From NCBI GenBank assembly GCA_944323725.1, contig CALUTP010000022.1, positions 1 to 64,000 of the forward strand: 64,000 bases of DNA, in the 5' to 3' direction. The position numbers and the translations under genes are program-made. The stretch comes from Candidatus Gastranaerophilales bacterium (GTDB lineage: Bacteria; Cyanobacteriota; Vampirovibrionia; Gastranaerophilales; Gastranaerophilaceae). Positions within the stretch are counted from its first letter, which is position 1; every line of letters begins with the position of its first letter. Below, piece after piece: positions 1 to 8,547 of this stretch. The notes beneath the pieces were generated by a model. That model ran no database searches, had not been told where the DNA came from, and saw nothing but the letters and a program-made list of their open reading frames with translations.

Positions 1-70
1 GATATACTCGGATACACAATAGATATCCGCTGAACCAGTATAGAGGGTATGGATAAAAATTAGGTGGTAC

Positions 71-85
71 TTTGATAAATGAGGC
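71..85. repeat. Candidate left attachment site of the Rep/recombinase element
   Basis: The 15 bases here match 14 of 15 bases at 3873-3887; the first 11 (TTTGATAAATG) are identical. The right copy runs into the 3' CCA end of tRNA-His. The two copies are in direct orientation and bracket the replication protein, the small ORF and the serine recombinase. That is what recombination between attP and a tRNA-adjacent attB would leave. The assignment is inference: the match is short, and serine recombinases often share only a very short core. Confidence 0.45.
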
Positions 86-137
86 TCAGAAAATTTCCTG
101 TATTTTGTAAATCTTTACCCCTAATGGCGTAAATTAT

Positions 138-169
138 AAATTAAGTTGAAGCAGGCTTTAACTTAATTT
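138..169. repeat. 32-bp near-perfect palindrome
   Basis: Ten bases (AAATTAAGTT) are repeated inverted at 160-169. An inner AAGC/GCTT pair meets at a central AG, and only one symmetric position is mismatched. It lies between the candidate left attachment site and the promoter at 183-211. It could be a binding site for the recombinase or another dimeric protein, or a hairpin ending transcription that enters from the left. The sequence alone does not decide. Confidence 0.6.
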
Positions 170-182
170 TAGCTTTAAAAAG

Positions 183-211
183 TTGAGAAAATATAGGATT
201 CATGTTATAAT
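183..211 (+). promoter_or_regulatory. Sigma-70-type promoter of the replication gene
   Basis: TTGAGA at 183-188 and TATAAT at 206-211 are separated by 17 bases, a near-consensus housekeeping promoter. Transcription would start near 218. That leaves an unusually long leader of about 245 bases before the replication gene at 464. The leader contains inverted repeats at 287-313, 385-399 and 435-451. Confidence 0.65.
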
Positions 212-286
212 AGAGACATAATTTATAGTAAGAAGTTAATCTTAACATACTGAGAAAGGTATTGTTATAGCCGTTCTTACTAGACT

Positions 287-313
287 AGACGTTATACATA
301 AGTATATACGTCT
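287..313 (+). repeat. Inverted repeat in the rep leader
   Basis: AGACGTTATAC is followed after a few bases by GTATATACGTCT, an imperfect palindrome of about 27 bases. Placed in the untranslated leader of a rolling-circle-type initiator gene, it is a candidate initiator binding or nicking region, or an RNA control hairpin. Neither role is demonstrated. Confidence 0.45.
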
Positions 314-384
314 AAGTGTAGTACGAATTTGGCAAGAGGCTGTAATGAAGATTACTATCTTACAATACGCATTTAGACAGATGC

Positions 385-451
385 TCTGCGTTAAGCAGAA
401 ATTTTCTGATGTGAATTTTTCCATTAGCACAGCTTCTTGCCTCAAGCAAGA
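385..451 (+). promoter_or_regulatory. Two short hairpins just upstream of the rep start
   Basis: TCTGC-GTTAA-GCAGA at 385-399 and TCTTGC-CTCAA-GCAAGA at 435-451 are perfect stems of 5 and 6 bp, each with a 5-base loop ending in AA. The second ends where the likely ribosome-binding sequence AGAAAGG (about 449-455) begins, so folding could affect initiation at 464. Similar paired leader hairpins control copy number in some plasmids. This is inference from position. Confidence 0.35.
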
Positions 452-463
452 AAGGCTAAAACA

Positions 464-2074
464 ATGGAAAAACTTCACAAAAGAGGTAATAGTACCTCAT
501 CTTTCTCAGCCCAAGAAACAACAGGTAGTAATTTGCTACTTTTTGAACAGACTGAACCTGAATTTAATGAGGATGAAACAAACGACTTTGACACTGCACC
601 TGAGAAGAGACCTGCTCTCAGTACAATGCAAACACATTTAAAGTGGCTGAATAAAAGGCTTACAAACACTATTGAATTGGACATTTTCTGCCAGCAGTTT
701 GACCGGCTAAAAATGGCTATTGATTTGAATATACATGCTGCAGATATTGAGTTTAAATTTGATATCGCTTCAAGCAACATGCGTATATCTAAATGTCCTG
801 AAAAAATTCCAAGCAGACAGGAAGAGCGACAACAGTTTATTGAAGAGTATAGAAATCCTGACCCTCCATTTCACAATGTCGTTATAAGTGAAGAAGAGTC
901 AAGCAAAATTGATGATAAACTTGTTGCAGATATTATGGCTACAATTAATGAAGATTATGATACGGTTGAAGCCAATATTACATATAGCATTGATGATAGT
1001 GATTCTGAAGAAAATGACATAACAGCAGATGAGACAATTGAGACAGAAAAGCTCGGAAATATTAAGTCAGAACTTCCTAACTGTAAAATAAGTTACGAAA
1101 TATACTCTCAAAACTTTGGAATTTATAATATATACATTAAAAACGGACTTCTTGTTATTTATCTTAGCGGAAAATTCATGGGAAAATCCGGAGTGCTAGG
1201 GTATATAACGAAAGATAATATTTATCAATGTCTTACGAAGGTCTGCCACCTAGCTGGCTTTACTTTTAATATTAAAGAGTTTATTAGAGAGGCTCATGTA
1301 TTTCTATGTGATGTATGTATTGATATTCCGCAGAAAGATATTAAAGAAGTTGAAAAAGATATAAGGGCATTAAGCTCTATGCTGCCTTTATCATCAAGCA
1401 GCCATGAGTGCAAGAAATATGGCAATCACGGAATATTGCTTAAAAGCAGAGCAAAAAATATAGGAAGTTCGTTTATTGCATATAGTAAATGGCATGATTT
1501 AATGCTAAGTGCGAATAAGGGGAAAAGAACTCCTGCATATATAAATGAAATAGGAATGAGCGGAAAGAATATTGCCAGAACCACTCTGCGTCTTGAGTGT
1601 AAAATGTACAAACTGGAAGACATACGCACCTTACTTGAAGTACCTTATTATTATAAAAAAGTGATGCTTAGTGATGTCTTAAATAGTACTGCGAAGCCTA
1701 TTTTAAAAAGATTAGAAGCATTTGATTGCACAGAAAGTATCCTTAAAAAAAGAATTTCTCTTTATGTCGAAGGGGAAGAAAAAAGCGAACAAGAAGGCTT
1801 ACAAGGTGTTCAAGTCCGTGAAAGACTTGCTGCCGAACGTATTGGAGAACTAGTAAGGGATAATAACTTTGATATAAGAAAAGTCAAAGATGATTTAATA
1901 ACAGAGTATAACATTAATGATGAAAATACTATAAAAGGCTTAATTCCTTATATTAAAGACAGTTACTGGAGTTTCTTGTTATATAGGAAGCCTAAAGCAA
2001 TTAAACGAGTTATATGCCTGCTTGATAAAATACATATTTATTATGGCAGAAAGGCAGGTAGCCAAAATGCCTAA
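464..2074 (+). CDS. Phage/plasmid replication initiator, II/X (G2P)-like
   Basis: Predicted 536-residue protein. The first ~215 residues are polar and strongly acidic, probably disordered. The next ~200 resemble the filamentous-phage gene II/X initiator family: a strand pattern ending in SGKFMG, a later FLCDVCIDIP (the D.C.D-type strand of these proteins), and TTLRLECKMY. Such proteins nick one strand to start rolling-circle replication. I chose ATG 464 because AGAAAGG lies about 8 bases upstream; an in-frame TTG at 437 lacks such support. It overlaps the next ORF by 8 bases and forms one operon with it and the serine recombinase. The catalytic tyrosine cannot be assigned by eye. It could instead be another Rep class. 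Confidence 0.6.
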   Translation: MEKLHKRGNSTSSFSAQETTGSNLLLFEQTEPEFNEDETNDFDTAPEKRPALSTMQTHLKWLNKRLTNTIELDIFCQQFDRLKMAIDLNIHAADIEFKFDIASSNMRISKCPEKIPSRQEERQQFIEEYRNPDPPFHNVVISEEESSKIDDKLVADIMATINEDYDTVEANITYSIDDSDSEENDITADETIETEKLGNIKSELPNCKISYEIYSQNFGIYNIYIKNGLLVIYLSGKFMGKSGVLGYITKDNIYQCLTKVCHLAGFTFNIKEFIREAHVFLCDVCIDIPQKDIKEVEKDIRALSSMLPLSSSSHECKKYGNHGILLKSRAKNIGSSFIAYSKWHDLMLSANKGKRTPAYINEIGMSGKNIARTTLRLECKMYKLEDIRTLLEVPYYYKKVMLSDVLNSTAKPILKRLEAFDCTESILKKRISLYVEGEEKSEQEGLQGVQVRERLAAERIGELVRDNNFDIRKVKDDLITEYNINDENTIKGLIPYIKDSYWSFLLYRKPKAIKRVICLLDKIHIYYGRKAGSQNA

Positions 2075-2231
2075 GGATAAACTCGGTATAAAATTCATCT
2101 CTTATGATTTATTGAAATTACAAGAAGAAGACATAAATGATTTAACACAATTTGTTGTAAAACTTGCAGAGCAAGGATTTAAAGATAATATAATAAAAGG
2201 GGCATTCCCAGGAAAGGATAGAAATGAGTAA
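2067..2231 (+). CDS. Small protein between rep and recombinase
   Basis: Predicted 54-residue charged protein beginning MPKDKLGIKF. The ATG at 2067 overlaps the rep stop by 8 bases (ATGCCTAA), and its own stop overlaps the recombinase start by 8 bases (ATGAGTAA). This repeated geometry supports translational coupling and this start over the ATG at 2043. I do not recognise the family. Its position suggests a recombination directionality factor or a copy-control protein, but nothing in the sequence proves either. Confidence 0.55.
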   Translation: MPKDKLGIKFISYDLLKLQEEDINDLTQFVVKLAEQGFKDNIIKGAFPGKDRNE

Positions 2232-3939
2232 AACGGCTATTATTTATGTAAGAGTCTCTACAGAAGAACAGAAGAAGAAAGGTTACAGTATCAGCGGTCA
2301 AACCCAGAGATGTATTGAATTCGCTAAACGTAACGACTATAGCGTTATTAAAATCTTTACAGATGAAGGTAAGAGTGCAAAGAACCTAAAAAGACCGGAA
2401 CTACAAGAAATGTTTCGATACATTAAATGTAATTCCAGAAAACCGCAAGCCTTAATCTTTTGGAAGTGGGATAGGCTCTCTCGTGGTGAAGATGCTGATT
2501 ATGTTGAATTAGGAAAACTGTTTGACAGATACAACATAACACCTTTGTCTGTTGAAGAAAACAATGAAACCTCGCCAGAAGCAAAACTCATGAGAAAAAT
2601 TACCAGAGCTACAAGTGCTTATGAACTAGACAAAGACTCTCAGAGAACAAAAATGGGTATGCTGAGAAAAGCAGAAGAAGGTTTATTCCCAGGAAAAGCT
2701 CCTATCGGATACTTGAATGTGCGAGATGAACACGATAAGGGAATTATTGTTGAAGATATTAAAACCTCCCCATACATAATTAGCATATTCCAGCATTATG
2801 CAAGTGAAAATGGACATTCTTTAGAAGCTCTTGGGCAGATAATGTTTAAAGAAGGTTTCAAGGATAAATATGGTAATCCTTATAAAGCAAGGAAGTTTGA
2901 AGAAATTCTCAAAAACCCTTTTTATACAGGAGACTTTATCTGGGCTGGTAAACGTTATCAAGGTAAACATAAACCGATAATAGATAAAAAGCTGTTTTAT
3001 AGAGTACAGGAGAGGTTTGGCAATACTAACAAGCCTAAATATAATGATAAGAACTTCACATATACGAACTTTATCACTTGTGCAAAGTGTGGATGTTATA
3101 TGACCGCAGAACGCAAGAATGGTGCGCATAACAGCGGTAATTATATATATTATCACTGTACTAATAGAAAGAAAATGCACTCAAGCCTTAAAGGCTTGAG
3201 TGTGAGGGAAGAGGTAATTGACACAGCTTTTCAAGATATTATAAGCAGTATCGCAATACCTACATATATAGTTACAAGTTTAAAAGATAAGATTATATCA
3301 AGTCTTGATAAACTATATGAAGCTGAAAATAAACTTATTGAGTCAAAAATGAAACGCATTAAGGAACTTGACCACTTAATAGCAAGAAGTTACGAAGACA
3401 AATTGCTAGGAAAACTTCCTCCTTCATACACGGAAGAATTGTTTAATAAACAAAGCTCTGATTGGCAGAAAGAAAGAGATATACTTGCGATTGATATTAA
3501 AGAAAGTAACAATATTAACAGCAGTGTATATAAGAATATTGACCTTATAATTAACTTCTGCAACAAAATGCCTGATTTATATATTAATGCCTCTATTGAA
3601 GATAAAAGGTGTATAATGAGAATGCTCATTGAAGATATTCAATATGCTGACGGCGAGCTTGTCGTTAAACTCAAACCAATCTTTGAGGCAATGAGACTTC
3701 TTAAAGAGACTGAAAACATTACAGAGCATTCTAATGTTAGAACCCTGAAAAAGCCTTTAAATAAAGAGCTTCTAGAATATTTGAACGAACAAGTTTCATC
3801 AGTGATAAATGCTAAGGTTAGAACCCTCGAAACCCGCATTATTCCTAACAAAAAAGACCCCGAAGGGTCAAATTTGATAAATGGGGCGGATAGTGGGATT
3901 CGAACCCACGTATATCGGAACCACAATCCGAGGTCTTAA
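2224..3939 (+). CDS. Large serine recombinase (site-specific integrase)
   Basis: Predicted 571 residues. The N-terminal resolvase domain (about 1-140) has the catalytic serine in YVRVST and the conserved LIFWKWDRLSRG. A recombinase domain follows (about 160-280), then a zinc-ribbon region (CAKC at about 284, YHC at about 313) and a coiled-coil/C-terminal arm. The fourth zinc ligand expected near residue 320 is not evident. Family members cut both strands at attP and attB and exchange them through a serine-DNA link. The last ~19 codons are antisense to tRNA-His, so the annotated C-terminus is partly host sequence. In a circular form joined at the candidate direct repeat, the frame would instead end about 9 codons past the core. 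Last gene of a three-gene operon. Confidence 0.9.
   Translation: MSKTAIIYVRVSTEEQKKKGYSISGQTQRCIEFAKRNDYSVIKIFTDEGKSAKNLKRPELQEMFRYIKCNSRKPQALIFWKWDRLSRGEDADYVELGKLFDRYNITPLSVEENNETSPEAKLMRKITRATSAYELDKDSQRTKMGMLRKAEEGLFPGKAPIGYLNVRDEHDKGIIVEDIKTSPYIISIFQHYASENGHSLEALGQIMFKEGFKDKYGNPYKARKFEEILKNPFYTGDFIWAGKRYQGKHKPIIDKKLFYRVQERFGNTNKPKYNDKNFTYTNFITCAKCGCYMTAERKNGAHNSGNYIYYHCTNRKKMHSSLKGLSVREEVIDTAFQDIISSIAIPTYIVTSLKDKIISSLDKLYEAENKLIESKMKRIKELDHLIARSYEDKLLGKLPPSYTEELFNKQSSDWQKERDILAIDIKESNNINSSVYKNIDLIINFCNKMPDLYINASIEDKRCIMRMLIEDIQYADGELVVKLKPIFEAMRLLKETENITEHSNVRTLKKPLNKELLEYLNEQVSSVINAKVRTLETRIIPNKKDPEGSNLINGADSGIRTHVYRNHNPRS
3178..3202 (+). repeat. Perfect hairpin inside the recombinase gene
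   Basis: CACTCAAGCC at 3178-3187 is inverted at 3193-3202 with a TTAAA spacer; the stem is 10-11 bp. It sits in the coding region just after the zinc-ribbon cysteines. No T-run follows, so it is not a standard terminator. A stem this long is unlikely by chance and may be a DNA or RNA signal of the element. Confidence 0.6.
3731..3832 (+). repeat. Two near-identical 20-base direct repeats near the recombinase 3' end
   Basis: CTAATGTTAGAACCCTGAAA (3731-3750) and CTAAGGTTAGAACCCTCGAA (from 3812) recur 81 bases apart. The core GGTTAGAACC in the second copy is a palindrome with a central AG. Both copies are in the same reading frame (VRTL) but lie close to the candidate element end, so they could be recombinase or accessory binding sites rather than a protein repeat. 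Confidence 0.4.
3850..3869 (-). terminator. Rho-independent terminator downstream of tRNA-His
   Basis: On the minus strand GACCC-TTCG-GGGTC is followed by six T. This is a stable tetraloop hairpin only 12 bases beyond the tRNA CCA end. It lies inside the recombinase reading frame and inside the candidate element boundary, so the element may supply the terminator for the host tRNA. Confidence 0.75.
3873..3887. repeat. Candidate right attachment site overlapping the tRNA-His 3' end
   Basis: Right copy of the direct repeat described at 71-85. It covers the tRNA CCA end and first acceptor bases on the complementary strand. Integration at this point leaves the tRNA intact. Integration at tRNA 3' ends is common for mobile elements, though more often with tyrosine than serine recombinases. 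Confidence 0.45.
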
Positions 3940-3958
3940 CCACTTGACGATATCCGCC
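3882..3958 (-). tRNA. tRNA-His (anticodon GTG)
   Basis: The minus strand folds as a complete tRNA. The acceptor arm GCGGATA pairs with TATCCGC. The anticodon stem TCGGA/TCCGA holds the loop TTGTGGT with anticodon GTG, and the T arm is GTGGG-TTCGAAT-CCCAC. An encoded G at position -1 is the hallmark of tRNA-His. The discriminator C is followed by an encoded CCA (3882-3884). The gene is the apparent insertion target of the element to its left. Confidence 0.97.
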
Positions 3959-6699: not shown

Positions 6700-7590
6700 C
6701 TATGATTTTACAATCAGTGCAACCCATTGATTTTGGTGCATTTCTTCTACCAGTTCAAGATTATATTTTTTTATTGCGTCGAGTACAACTTGCTTTTTTT
6801 CATCTAAAATTCCAGAAAGAACCAAATAAGCTCCACCTTTCATGATGGATTTTAGGTCGCCCATAATTTCTGCCAATATGTTGTGCAAAATATTTGCCAA
6901 TACAAAATCAAATTGTTTTGATATTTTATCAGCTGTATTCAATTCAAATTTACACTCAGCATTATTTTTCTGGGCATTTTCAATAGCAACATCAATGACT
7001 GTCTCATCATTATCGCAGCCATAAGCCGATTTAGCACCAAACTTTTTAGCACAGATAGCTAAAATCCCAGATCCCATTCCAATATCTGCTACTTCTGCAT
7101 TTTGAGGCATATATTTTTCAATAGCCTTCATGCAAAGTTGTGTTGTAGCATGTGTGCCTGTTCCAAAAGCACATCCAGGCTCAAGTTTAATAATAACTTC
7201 ATTATCTTGTTTAGGGGTATATTCAATCCAATCAGGTACAACAGTTATTCTGTCAGAGACATGAGTTACATCCCATTTTTCTTTCCATTTTCTAGACCAG
7301 TCTTCGTTTTCTTTTTCAACATAAGAAAATTCCCAACTACCTAGTTCCTCATCAGAAAAACCTCTGGATTTTAGTATTGTACGTTGCTCTTTTAAAATAT
7401 TATCAACATCAGCTTTTTGCGTAAGAAAAACTCTAAGTGTTCCTTCTGTTGTAGAAATCATTTCAAGGTCTTTATAACTTTCTTCAGCGAGTACTACTCC
7501 TTCACAGGGAAAATTTTCAAAACATATATTTGATACAATTTCTTCAATTTCAGGATTAATTTTAATTTGTAATTCAAAATATGAGCTCAT
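6700..7590 (-). CDS. prmA: Ribosomal protein L11 methyltransferase
   Basis: Predicted 296 residues, matching PrmA. It has an N-terminal substrate-recognition domain, the linker LEPGCAFGTGTHATT, the SAM-binding motif VADIGMGSGILAI, and FVLANILHNIL in place of the usual NILANPL. It trimethylates lysines and the N-terminus of ribosomal protein L11 using S-adenosylmethionine. It follows accA by 3 bases, so it is in the same operon. Confidence 0.93.
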   Translation of the reverse strand: MSSYFELQIKINPEIEEIVSNICFENFPCEGVVLAEESYKDLEMISTTEGTLRVFLTQKADVDNILKEQRTILKSRGFSDEELGSWEFSYVEKENEDWSRKWKEKWDVTHVSDRITVVPDWIEYTPKQDNEVIIKLEPGCAFGTGTHATTQLCMKAIEKYMPQNAEVADIGMGSGILAICAKKFGAKSAYGCDNDETVIDVAIENAQKNNAECKFELNTADKISKQFDFVLANILHNILAEIMGDLKSIMKGGAYLVLSGILDEKKQVVLDAIKKYNLELVEEMHQNQWVALIVKS

Positions 7591-7593
7591 ATT

Positions 7594-8547
7594 CTACTCC
7601 AAAAAAGCCCCCATTTTGCGGAATTTTTCGTATCTTTGAGCTTTTAATTCTGAGCTGGAATATTTAGAAAGTTCTTCTATGCTTTCAATAATAGTTTTTT
7701 TCATTTCATTACAAACTAAGTCATAATCATTATGAGCTCCACCGAGAGGTTCTTTTATTGCGCCATCAATAATATCAAATTTCATTAAATCAGGAGCAGT
7801 AATTTTTAAAGCTTCGGCAGCATCACTAGCACGAGAAGCATCACGCCATAATATAGAGGCACATCCTTCAGGAGAAATTACTGTATAATATGCGTGCTCA
7901 AGTAAAAATACTTTATTAGCAACAGCTAATCCAAGAGCACCTCCAGAGCAGCCTTCTCCTGTAATAATTGCAATTACAGGGACATCAAGCTTAGCCATTT
8001 CTCTAAGATTTACAGCGATAGCGATACCCTGTCCTGTTTGTTCTGCACTTATACCTGGATATGCTCCTGGAGTATCAATGAGTGTTACAATTGGCATTTT
8101 AAATTTATTAGCATGTTTGAATAATCTTAGAGCTTTCCTATATCCTTGAGGTTGAGGCATACCAAAATTATACTCTAGATTTTCTTTAGTGGATTTTCCT
8201 TTCATTGTACCTACTATCATAATTGGTTTGCCATTAATTTTAGCTAGACCTCCTATAATAGCTCTATCATCCATGCCTTCTCTATCGCCATGAAGTTCTA
8301 TAAAATCAGTACAAATGTGATTTACATAATCCAAAAAGTTTGGCCTTTCTGGATGTCTAGCTATTTGTAATTTTTGTGCAGGCTTTAGATTTTCATACAA
8401 ATCTTTTTTGTAATCTTCTGCCTGTTGTTCAAATGTTTCTATTTCTTTATTTAAATCCATGCCGGACTCCATGCTTATTTTTTTTAATTCTTCTATTTTT
8501 TCCTGAATTTCCATAATAGGTTTTTCAAAATCCAATACTGTTGTCAT
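7594..8547 (-). CDS. accA: Acetyl-CoA carboxylase carboxyltransferase alpha subunit
   Basis: Predicted 317 residues, the usual size. Family signatures include RPNFLDYVNHI, FHGDR-like ELHGDREG, TLIDTPGAYPG and GEGCSGGALG. With AccD it forms the carboxyltransferase that moves CO2 from biotin on AccB to acetyl-CoA, the first step of fatty acid synthesis. It lies 29 bases after accD. accB and accC are not in the window, but a biotin ligase is present at 51436. Confidence 0.96.
   Translation of the reverse strand: MTTVLDFEKPIMEIQEKIEELKKISMESGMDLNKEIETFEQQAEDYKKDLYENLKPAQKLQIARHPERPNFLDYVNHICTDFIELHGDREGMDDRAIIGGLAKINGKPIMIVGTMKGKSTKENLEYNFGMPQPQGYRKALRLFKHANKFKMPIVTLIDTPGAYPGISAEQTGQGIAIAVNLREMAKLDVPVIAIITGEGCSGGALGLAVANKVFLLEHAYYTVISPEGCASILWRDASRASDAAEALKITAPDLMKFDIIDGAIKEPLGGAHNDYDLVCNEMKKTIIESIEELSKYSSSELKAQRYEKFRKMGAFLE

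Follow-up and report, generated by a model that had tools for sequence, protein, structure and literature searches.

Positions 1 to 3881 of the window (the whole 64,000-nucleotide stretch analysed, from a Candidatus Gastranaerophilales genome labelled G000) very probably represent the tRNA-proximal end of an integrative element. The element would belong to a family spread through Gastranaerophilales, in which the excised circle would be copied by a rolling-circle-type initiator, Rep. Judged by analogy, and as far as the evidence goes, it appears to work like an integrative mobilizable element (IME) or an integrative replicon. The following features were located.

1..1, no strand: first base of contig C22 (179,053 bases); since base 1 is also the first base of the contig, the left edge of the window is an assembly break and not a genomic flank
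71..85, forward: left copy of a 15-bp repeat (TTTGATAAATGAGGC), not regarded here as the left attachment site
138..169, forward: near-perfect palindrome with 15-bp arms and a fold z-score of just -1.4, which might terminate an upstream unit or form an origin hairpin
183..211, forward: promoter-like site upstream of Rep, a consensus match of the form TTGAGA-17-TATAAT plus an extended -10
464..2074, forward: Rep, predicted rolling-circle-type initiator related to G2P / Rep_trans, with an ATG start (conserved residues, profile, fold)
2067..2231, forward: 54-aa protein (p54), a small ORF between Rep and Rec with a putative function
2224..3939, forward: Rec, large serine recombinase of 571 aa, catalytic motif RVS with Ser12 (domain matches)
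3815..3881, forward: element right-end block, in the Rec frame, common to G298 and the G198 relic
3856..3869, reverse: element-borne intrinsic terminator serving tRNA-His (comparison with G298 and G198)
3882..3887, forward: putative crossover core, about TGGGGC, at the tRNA-His 3′ end (analogy with the resolved TGTCGT core of Leu elements)
3882..3957, reverse: tRNA-His (GTG), the integration target, intact (tRNA call)

Genes of the window copy

The three genes described by the first-pass annotation, for an initiator, a 54-residue protein and a large serine recombinase, were confirmed at 464-2074, 2067-2231 and 2224-3939, with reading frames overlapping their neighbours by a few bases. Rep could alternatively start at a TTG at 437. 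Rec possessed Resolvase, Recombinase and Zn-ribbon domains with an intact catalytic domain and matched PHROG 95 (“integrase”). Its best NCBIfam matches, CcrB and CcrC, were both below the model cut-offs. The Rec stop codon ends 58 nt into the tRNA-His gene, and the last 19 codons before it are tRNA antisense. Upstream of Rep, the succession of the palindrome and the promoter-like site (138-211) would fit a border between two transcription units inside the element, although the total of such promoter-like sites in the region was not above chance. Several palindromes were present upstream of Rep and no common motif was found among them.

Queried as a single sequence, Rep had no family match in Pfam, PHROGs or NCBIfam and zero matches in the phage, plasmid, IMG/VR and genome_contigs collections. 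The members of a wide alignment (A1) had diverged too far for pattern scanning, and a closer alignment was used instead, which detected relatives in genome_contigs and none in IMG/VR. In the alignment of Rep with 24 homologues, D287, Y340-x-K342 and R376-x-E378 were invariant (numbered from the ATG at 464). The G2P N-terminal family Phage_CRI (PF05144) was matched weakly by 12 of the 25 aligned members, with a best E of 1.4e-4. The best PDB neighbours of the predicted Rep model (mean pLDDT 76.5) were the rolling-circle initiators RepDE (Z 8.5) and Geobacillus Rep (Z 7.5), with a TBP fold behind them (Z 5.5), and its neighbours in a viral library included an Inoviridae sp. G2P. A PDB sequence search with the Rep profile gave zero matches. 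The best reading of profile and model is that Rep is a rolling-circle-type initiator, of predicted activity and with weak similarity to G2P. By profile and fold, the element thus encodes the relaxase or RCR-type initiator that characterises IMEs.

The G2P-like initiator, with the Inoviridae neighbour of its model, is what would be expected if the element were a filamentous phage or its satellite. We consider this very improbable. The element of G048, a genome of the same genus, is complete (the window copy is not), and its searched proteins matched no coat, Zot-like or other virion family in Pfam or PHROGs, including the Zot-like assembly ATPase and small coat proteins that would be diagnostic. 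With the lack of Rep matches in phage, plasmid or viral-contig collections, the earlier label of satellite is not supported.

A small ORF adjoined 33 of 38 recombinases on their upstream side, with or without Rep, and many of these ORFs share a pattern. The 54-aa protein is therefore a candidate recombination directionality factor or regulator, a putative partner of Rec, and the small protein found beside most recombinases offers a ready candidate for such a factor.

Spread, cargo and attachment sites of the family

Rep homologues were found in 38 of 288 genomes and in 18 of the 41 genera of the host's family. The named records with Rep were mostly Candidatus Gastranaerophilales MAGs, the rest being uncultured-bacterium MAGs and a single MAG labelled uncultured Clostridium. 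Far from never adjoining recombinases, Rep lay upstream of Rec in 27 of the fetched loci. Rec ran into a tRNA gene in 32 loci (tRNA-Leu 15, tRNA-His 13, tRNA-Asp 2, tRNA-Ala 2), always in the same reading frame, AAT followed by the tRNA 3′ end. These counts bear out the first-pass proposal of a G2P-like initiator coupled to a serine recombinase in an integrative element at a tRNA gene. Some Rep relatives accompany a tyrosine integrase or other partners, which indicates that modules have been exchanged. The loci L177 and L178 (G298, G350) had a recombinase 70% identical to that of the window but lacked Rep; next to restriction genes they carry a small resolvase and an ORF of 359 aa that is recombinase-like. 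The replication module is therefore exchangeable.

The mapped relatives measured about 6-12 kb (6.0-11.7 kb). Some carry restriction-modification cargo, and thus genes against viruses, which sits at the left in mapped or partly mapped elements. The G048 element carries a type IIG enzyme and a PDC-S42 candidate, and the G086 and G298 elements have a type I and a type III enzyme beside them, respectively. In G198 a recombinase relic was adjoined by an SspD-like gene and a convergent neighbour (L058 8171-10153), and homologues of these two genes occur early in contig C18 of the window genome (L134 1033-3147). The family would thus form a set of gut mobile elements of Gastranaerophilales with fixed tRNA sites across many species, some with restriction systems.

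Boundaries were resolved in G048, in which the element occupies a tRNA-Leu site that is empty in G076, G184 and the window genome. The attB sequence (G076, G000) reads ...TTTTATGG-TGTCGT-AGGCGGG, attL in G048 reads ...TTTTATGG-TGTCGT-TAACGTT and attR reads ...GTTAAA-TGTCGT-AGGCGGG. The G048 element thus has attL and attR with a 6-bp core, TGTCGT, and measures 11,717 bp core to core against the empty sites in G076, G184 and G000; the window contig carries the right end only. In the resolved relatives the shared core corresponds to the 3′ end of the tRNA gene, with TGTCGT in Leu elements and about TGGGGC in His elements. The right-end block with its terminator was identical in G298, from another genus, and in the G198 relic, the tRNA genes differing beyond TGGGGCG. 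As the same block adjoins differing tRNA-His genes, the terminator belongs to the element. Its sharing by three congeners had suggested a host sequence, a candidate ruled out by the same comparison. In G150, two elements lie in tandem at tRNA-His with the terminator and tRNA 3′ end repeated. Right-end relics at tRNA-His were found in G198, G010 and G220, that of G198 also retaining the last recombinase codons.

Three further loci showed irregular borders. At the left border of L182 (3817-3940, G036:C4) there were two tandem copies of the tRNA-His 3′ end plus terminator, 101 bp apart, probable traces of repeated insertion. In L140 (G122:C4, reverse strand, about 7370-7600) a unit of ~190 bp adjoins tRNA-Leu between two exact tRNA 3′ ends (TGTCGTAGGCGGGACT). 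Its noncoding block recurs near tRNA-Leu in other species, with similar blocks in L142 (G198) and L138 (G076), and the unit is MITE-like or an excision relic. The element of L071 (10560-10704, G043:C12) was 99.4% identical to that of L070, and its recombinase ends early, at GGAACCCGC: unrelated sequence takes over 57 bp short of where the tRNA junction usually lies, probably through deletion or secondary recombination.

The comparison of loci shows that the serine recombinase family inserts these elements at tRNA 3′ ends through conservative recombination, using a short core whose length is 6 bp in the resolved case. A terminator comes with the element, so that the tRNA gene stays intact and terminated, and elements accumulate in tandem at one tRNA, some with restriction-modification cargo at the left. 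After excision, Rep would nick the circle and rolling-circle replication would follow, p54 acting as the presumed partner of the recombinase. Rep may double as a relaxase for mobilisation. A stronger version, in which Rep is mainly a relaxase, replication is secondary and the element is an IME passed on by conjugative elements, seems rather unlikely. It would agree with the presence of the elements in many species and with a survey of 144 streptococcal IMEs in which 118 had RCR-initiator-like relaxases, including some of the phage PHA00330 type (PMC5704250). However, the complete G048 element yielded no coupling protein and no oriT could be identified, there being no known oriT motif for such a Rep.

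The left end of the window copy

The first-pass annotation had bounded the element by a short direct repeat. The repeat itself stands (71-85 and 3873-3887, one mismatch), and was reached by only one of 300 shuffles in a post hoc test. Its role as a pair of element bounds is not supported, given the contig end and the core mismatch. The expected left boundary is the host terminator, then about TGGGGC, then element sequence. The part that 71-85 has in common with the right copy is TTTGATAAA, which is element right-end sequence, and TGAGGC replaces the core, so that the shared letters are on the wrong side of the crossover point. What lies tRNA-distal of the core, the terminator and ...GATAAA, is part of the right end of the element and would not be expected at the left. 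No terminator hairpin was found before 71-85 and no tail after it, where the frame stops after NEAQKISCIL. Since core, terminator and tail all fail, we do not take 71-85 for the left attachment site.

It is improbable that the element is nevertheless complete at 3.8 kb, bounded by this repeat and holding only Rep, p54 and Rec. In its favour are the rarity of the repeat among shuffles and the absence from bases 1-437 of an ORF of the usual upstream gene. In addition, the right end in G206 likewise finishes with TTTGATAAATGGGGC, which is present at the G141 tRNA-His too, such that 71-85 could be a mutated tandem junction. Against it, besides the failings of 71-85 just described, all left ends mapped in relatives are at least 6 kb away and all have a tail. 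The earlier description as a minimal, cargo-free element of about 3.8 kb rested on a truncated contig and is not supported, the mapped relatives being larger and some of them carrying cargo.

It is more economical to suppose that the contig ends within the element, so that the window copy lacks its left part; 71-85 could still be a degenerate tandem junction. Two observations sit uneasily with this preferred reading, namely the failure to find a left end for the window copy and the low probability of the repeat by chance. Bases 1-437 contained no left end of any relative, no Rec tail and no resemblance to relatives. When G000 was searched for the missing part, nothing resembled the small resolvase of the family at more than 27% identity, bases 1-450 did not recur and there was no match to a left-end tail, the tail being so short a query that this empty answer shows little. 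Two contigs were tried as left neighbours. Contig C18, considered for its homologues of the G198-relic genes, was dropped as its first 1 kb holds no element gene, and the end of C10, considered for its genes found left of tRNA-His in relatives, had no attachment site in its last bases. A further contig of the window genome (L135, G000:C3:1-5000) starts 38 bp before tRNA-Leu(GAG), a known insertion site. Assembly breaks such as this one may mark further elements.

Exchange of the recombinase tail and relation to known systems

Closing the G048 element into a circle in silico extended its Rec frame from 568 to 614 codons. The additional tail is encoded at the left end of the element. Similar tails, 30-50 aa in length and conserved within target groups, were found at the left ends in G043, G046, G138, G166, G206, G168, G036, G309 and both G150 elements, and in relics in G122 and G220. 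At left ends they mostly stood directly after terminator and core, in phase with the Rec frame. At the tandem junctions in G150 and G081, chromosomal recombinases had such a tail. The in-phase tails and the tandem junctions therefore place attP inside the 3′ part of the recombinase gene. At the level of sequence, we show that the circular form encodes a longer and different C-terminus than the integrated form, and integration, as read from the same comparison, replaces the tail with tRNA-antisense codons. The attachment site is located within the integrase gene by the tails in the relatives, and by the frame running through the core in the window. The excised window circle would read ...GATAAATGGGGC, then non-tRNA sequence in the Rec frame, ending in a tail that resembles the G150A and G206 tails.

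Tail identity was 82% between G048 and G043 and 56% between G168 and G309. Changes at codon positions 1, 2 and 3 numbered 7, 3, 8; 11, 6, 14; and 7, 4, 13 in ungapped pairs, position 2 being the least changed. Length and sequence differed between the Leu and His groups. The exchange at each integration and excision might toggle Rec between two modes of action, with its directionality set by the DNA itself, although we hold this tentatively. If tail exchange controls Rec, nature would offer an example of an enzyme altered by the very recombination that it carries out, of relevance to the choice of direction by serine integrases. It is also possible, if doubtful, that the exchange is a by-product of an attP at the gene end, with no regulatory effect. 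The group differences and the retention of the whole catalytic domain by the integrated Rec are consistent with a by-product, whereas the similarity of tails within groups, their phase with Rec as checked at left ends, and the low rate of change at codon position 2 argue against it.

A description of these Gastranaerophilales elements was not found in the literature searched, which covered few subscription papers. Inoviruses (filamentous phages) share the initiator family, weakly by profile and fold, but neither morphogenesis nor coat genes were found here. SCC elements (CcrA/B/C) likewise possess a large serine recombinase and cargo with restriction systems. They are defined by integration into rlmH by CcrA/CcrB or CcrC, whereas here the target is a tRNA 3′ end, the Ccr models scored below cut-off, Rep is of the rolling-circle type and the recombinase gene spans the attachment site.

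As in the archaeal “suicidal” (SSV-type) integrases, the attachment site lies in the integrase gene and integration alters the gene (PMC8371274). Self-splitting integrases have been reported only for archaeal tyrosine recombinases, which are split from their catalytic part (PMC8371274). Unlike these, Rec is a bacterial serine recombinase with its N-terminal catalytic domain intact and only the C-terminal tail exchanged. Rec therefore resembles the self-splitting integrases in part but is not a member of that group.

Among described classes the closest is that of IMEs whose relaxases resemble RCR initiators, and the likeness extends to tandem accretion (PMC5704250, PMC5357655). Streptococcal IMEs encode Rel_PHA00330 or MobT/Rep_trans relaxases, and among the IMEs listed in review the tRNA-integrating ones use tyrosine recombinases and the serine ones sit inside genes (PMC5704250, PMC5357655). 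The elements described here differ in belonging to another bacterial phylum, in having a serine recombinase at a tRNA, in that no coupling protein was found, and in the location of attP inside the recombinase gene. Like the streptococcal IMEs, they are small and chromosomal, combine an integrase with an RCR-type initiator, accrete in tandem at one site and carry passenger genes including restriction-modification.
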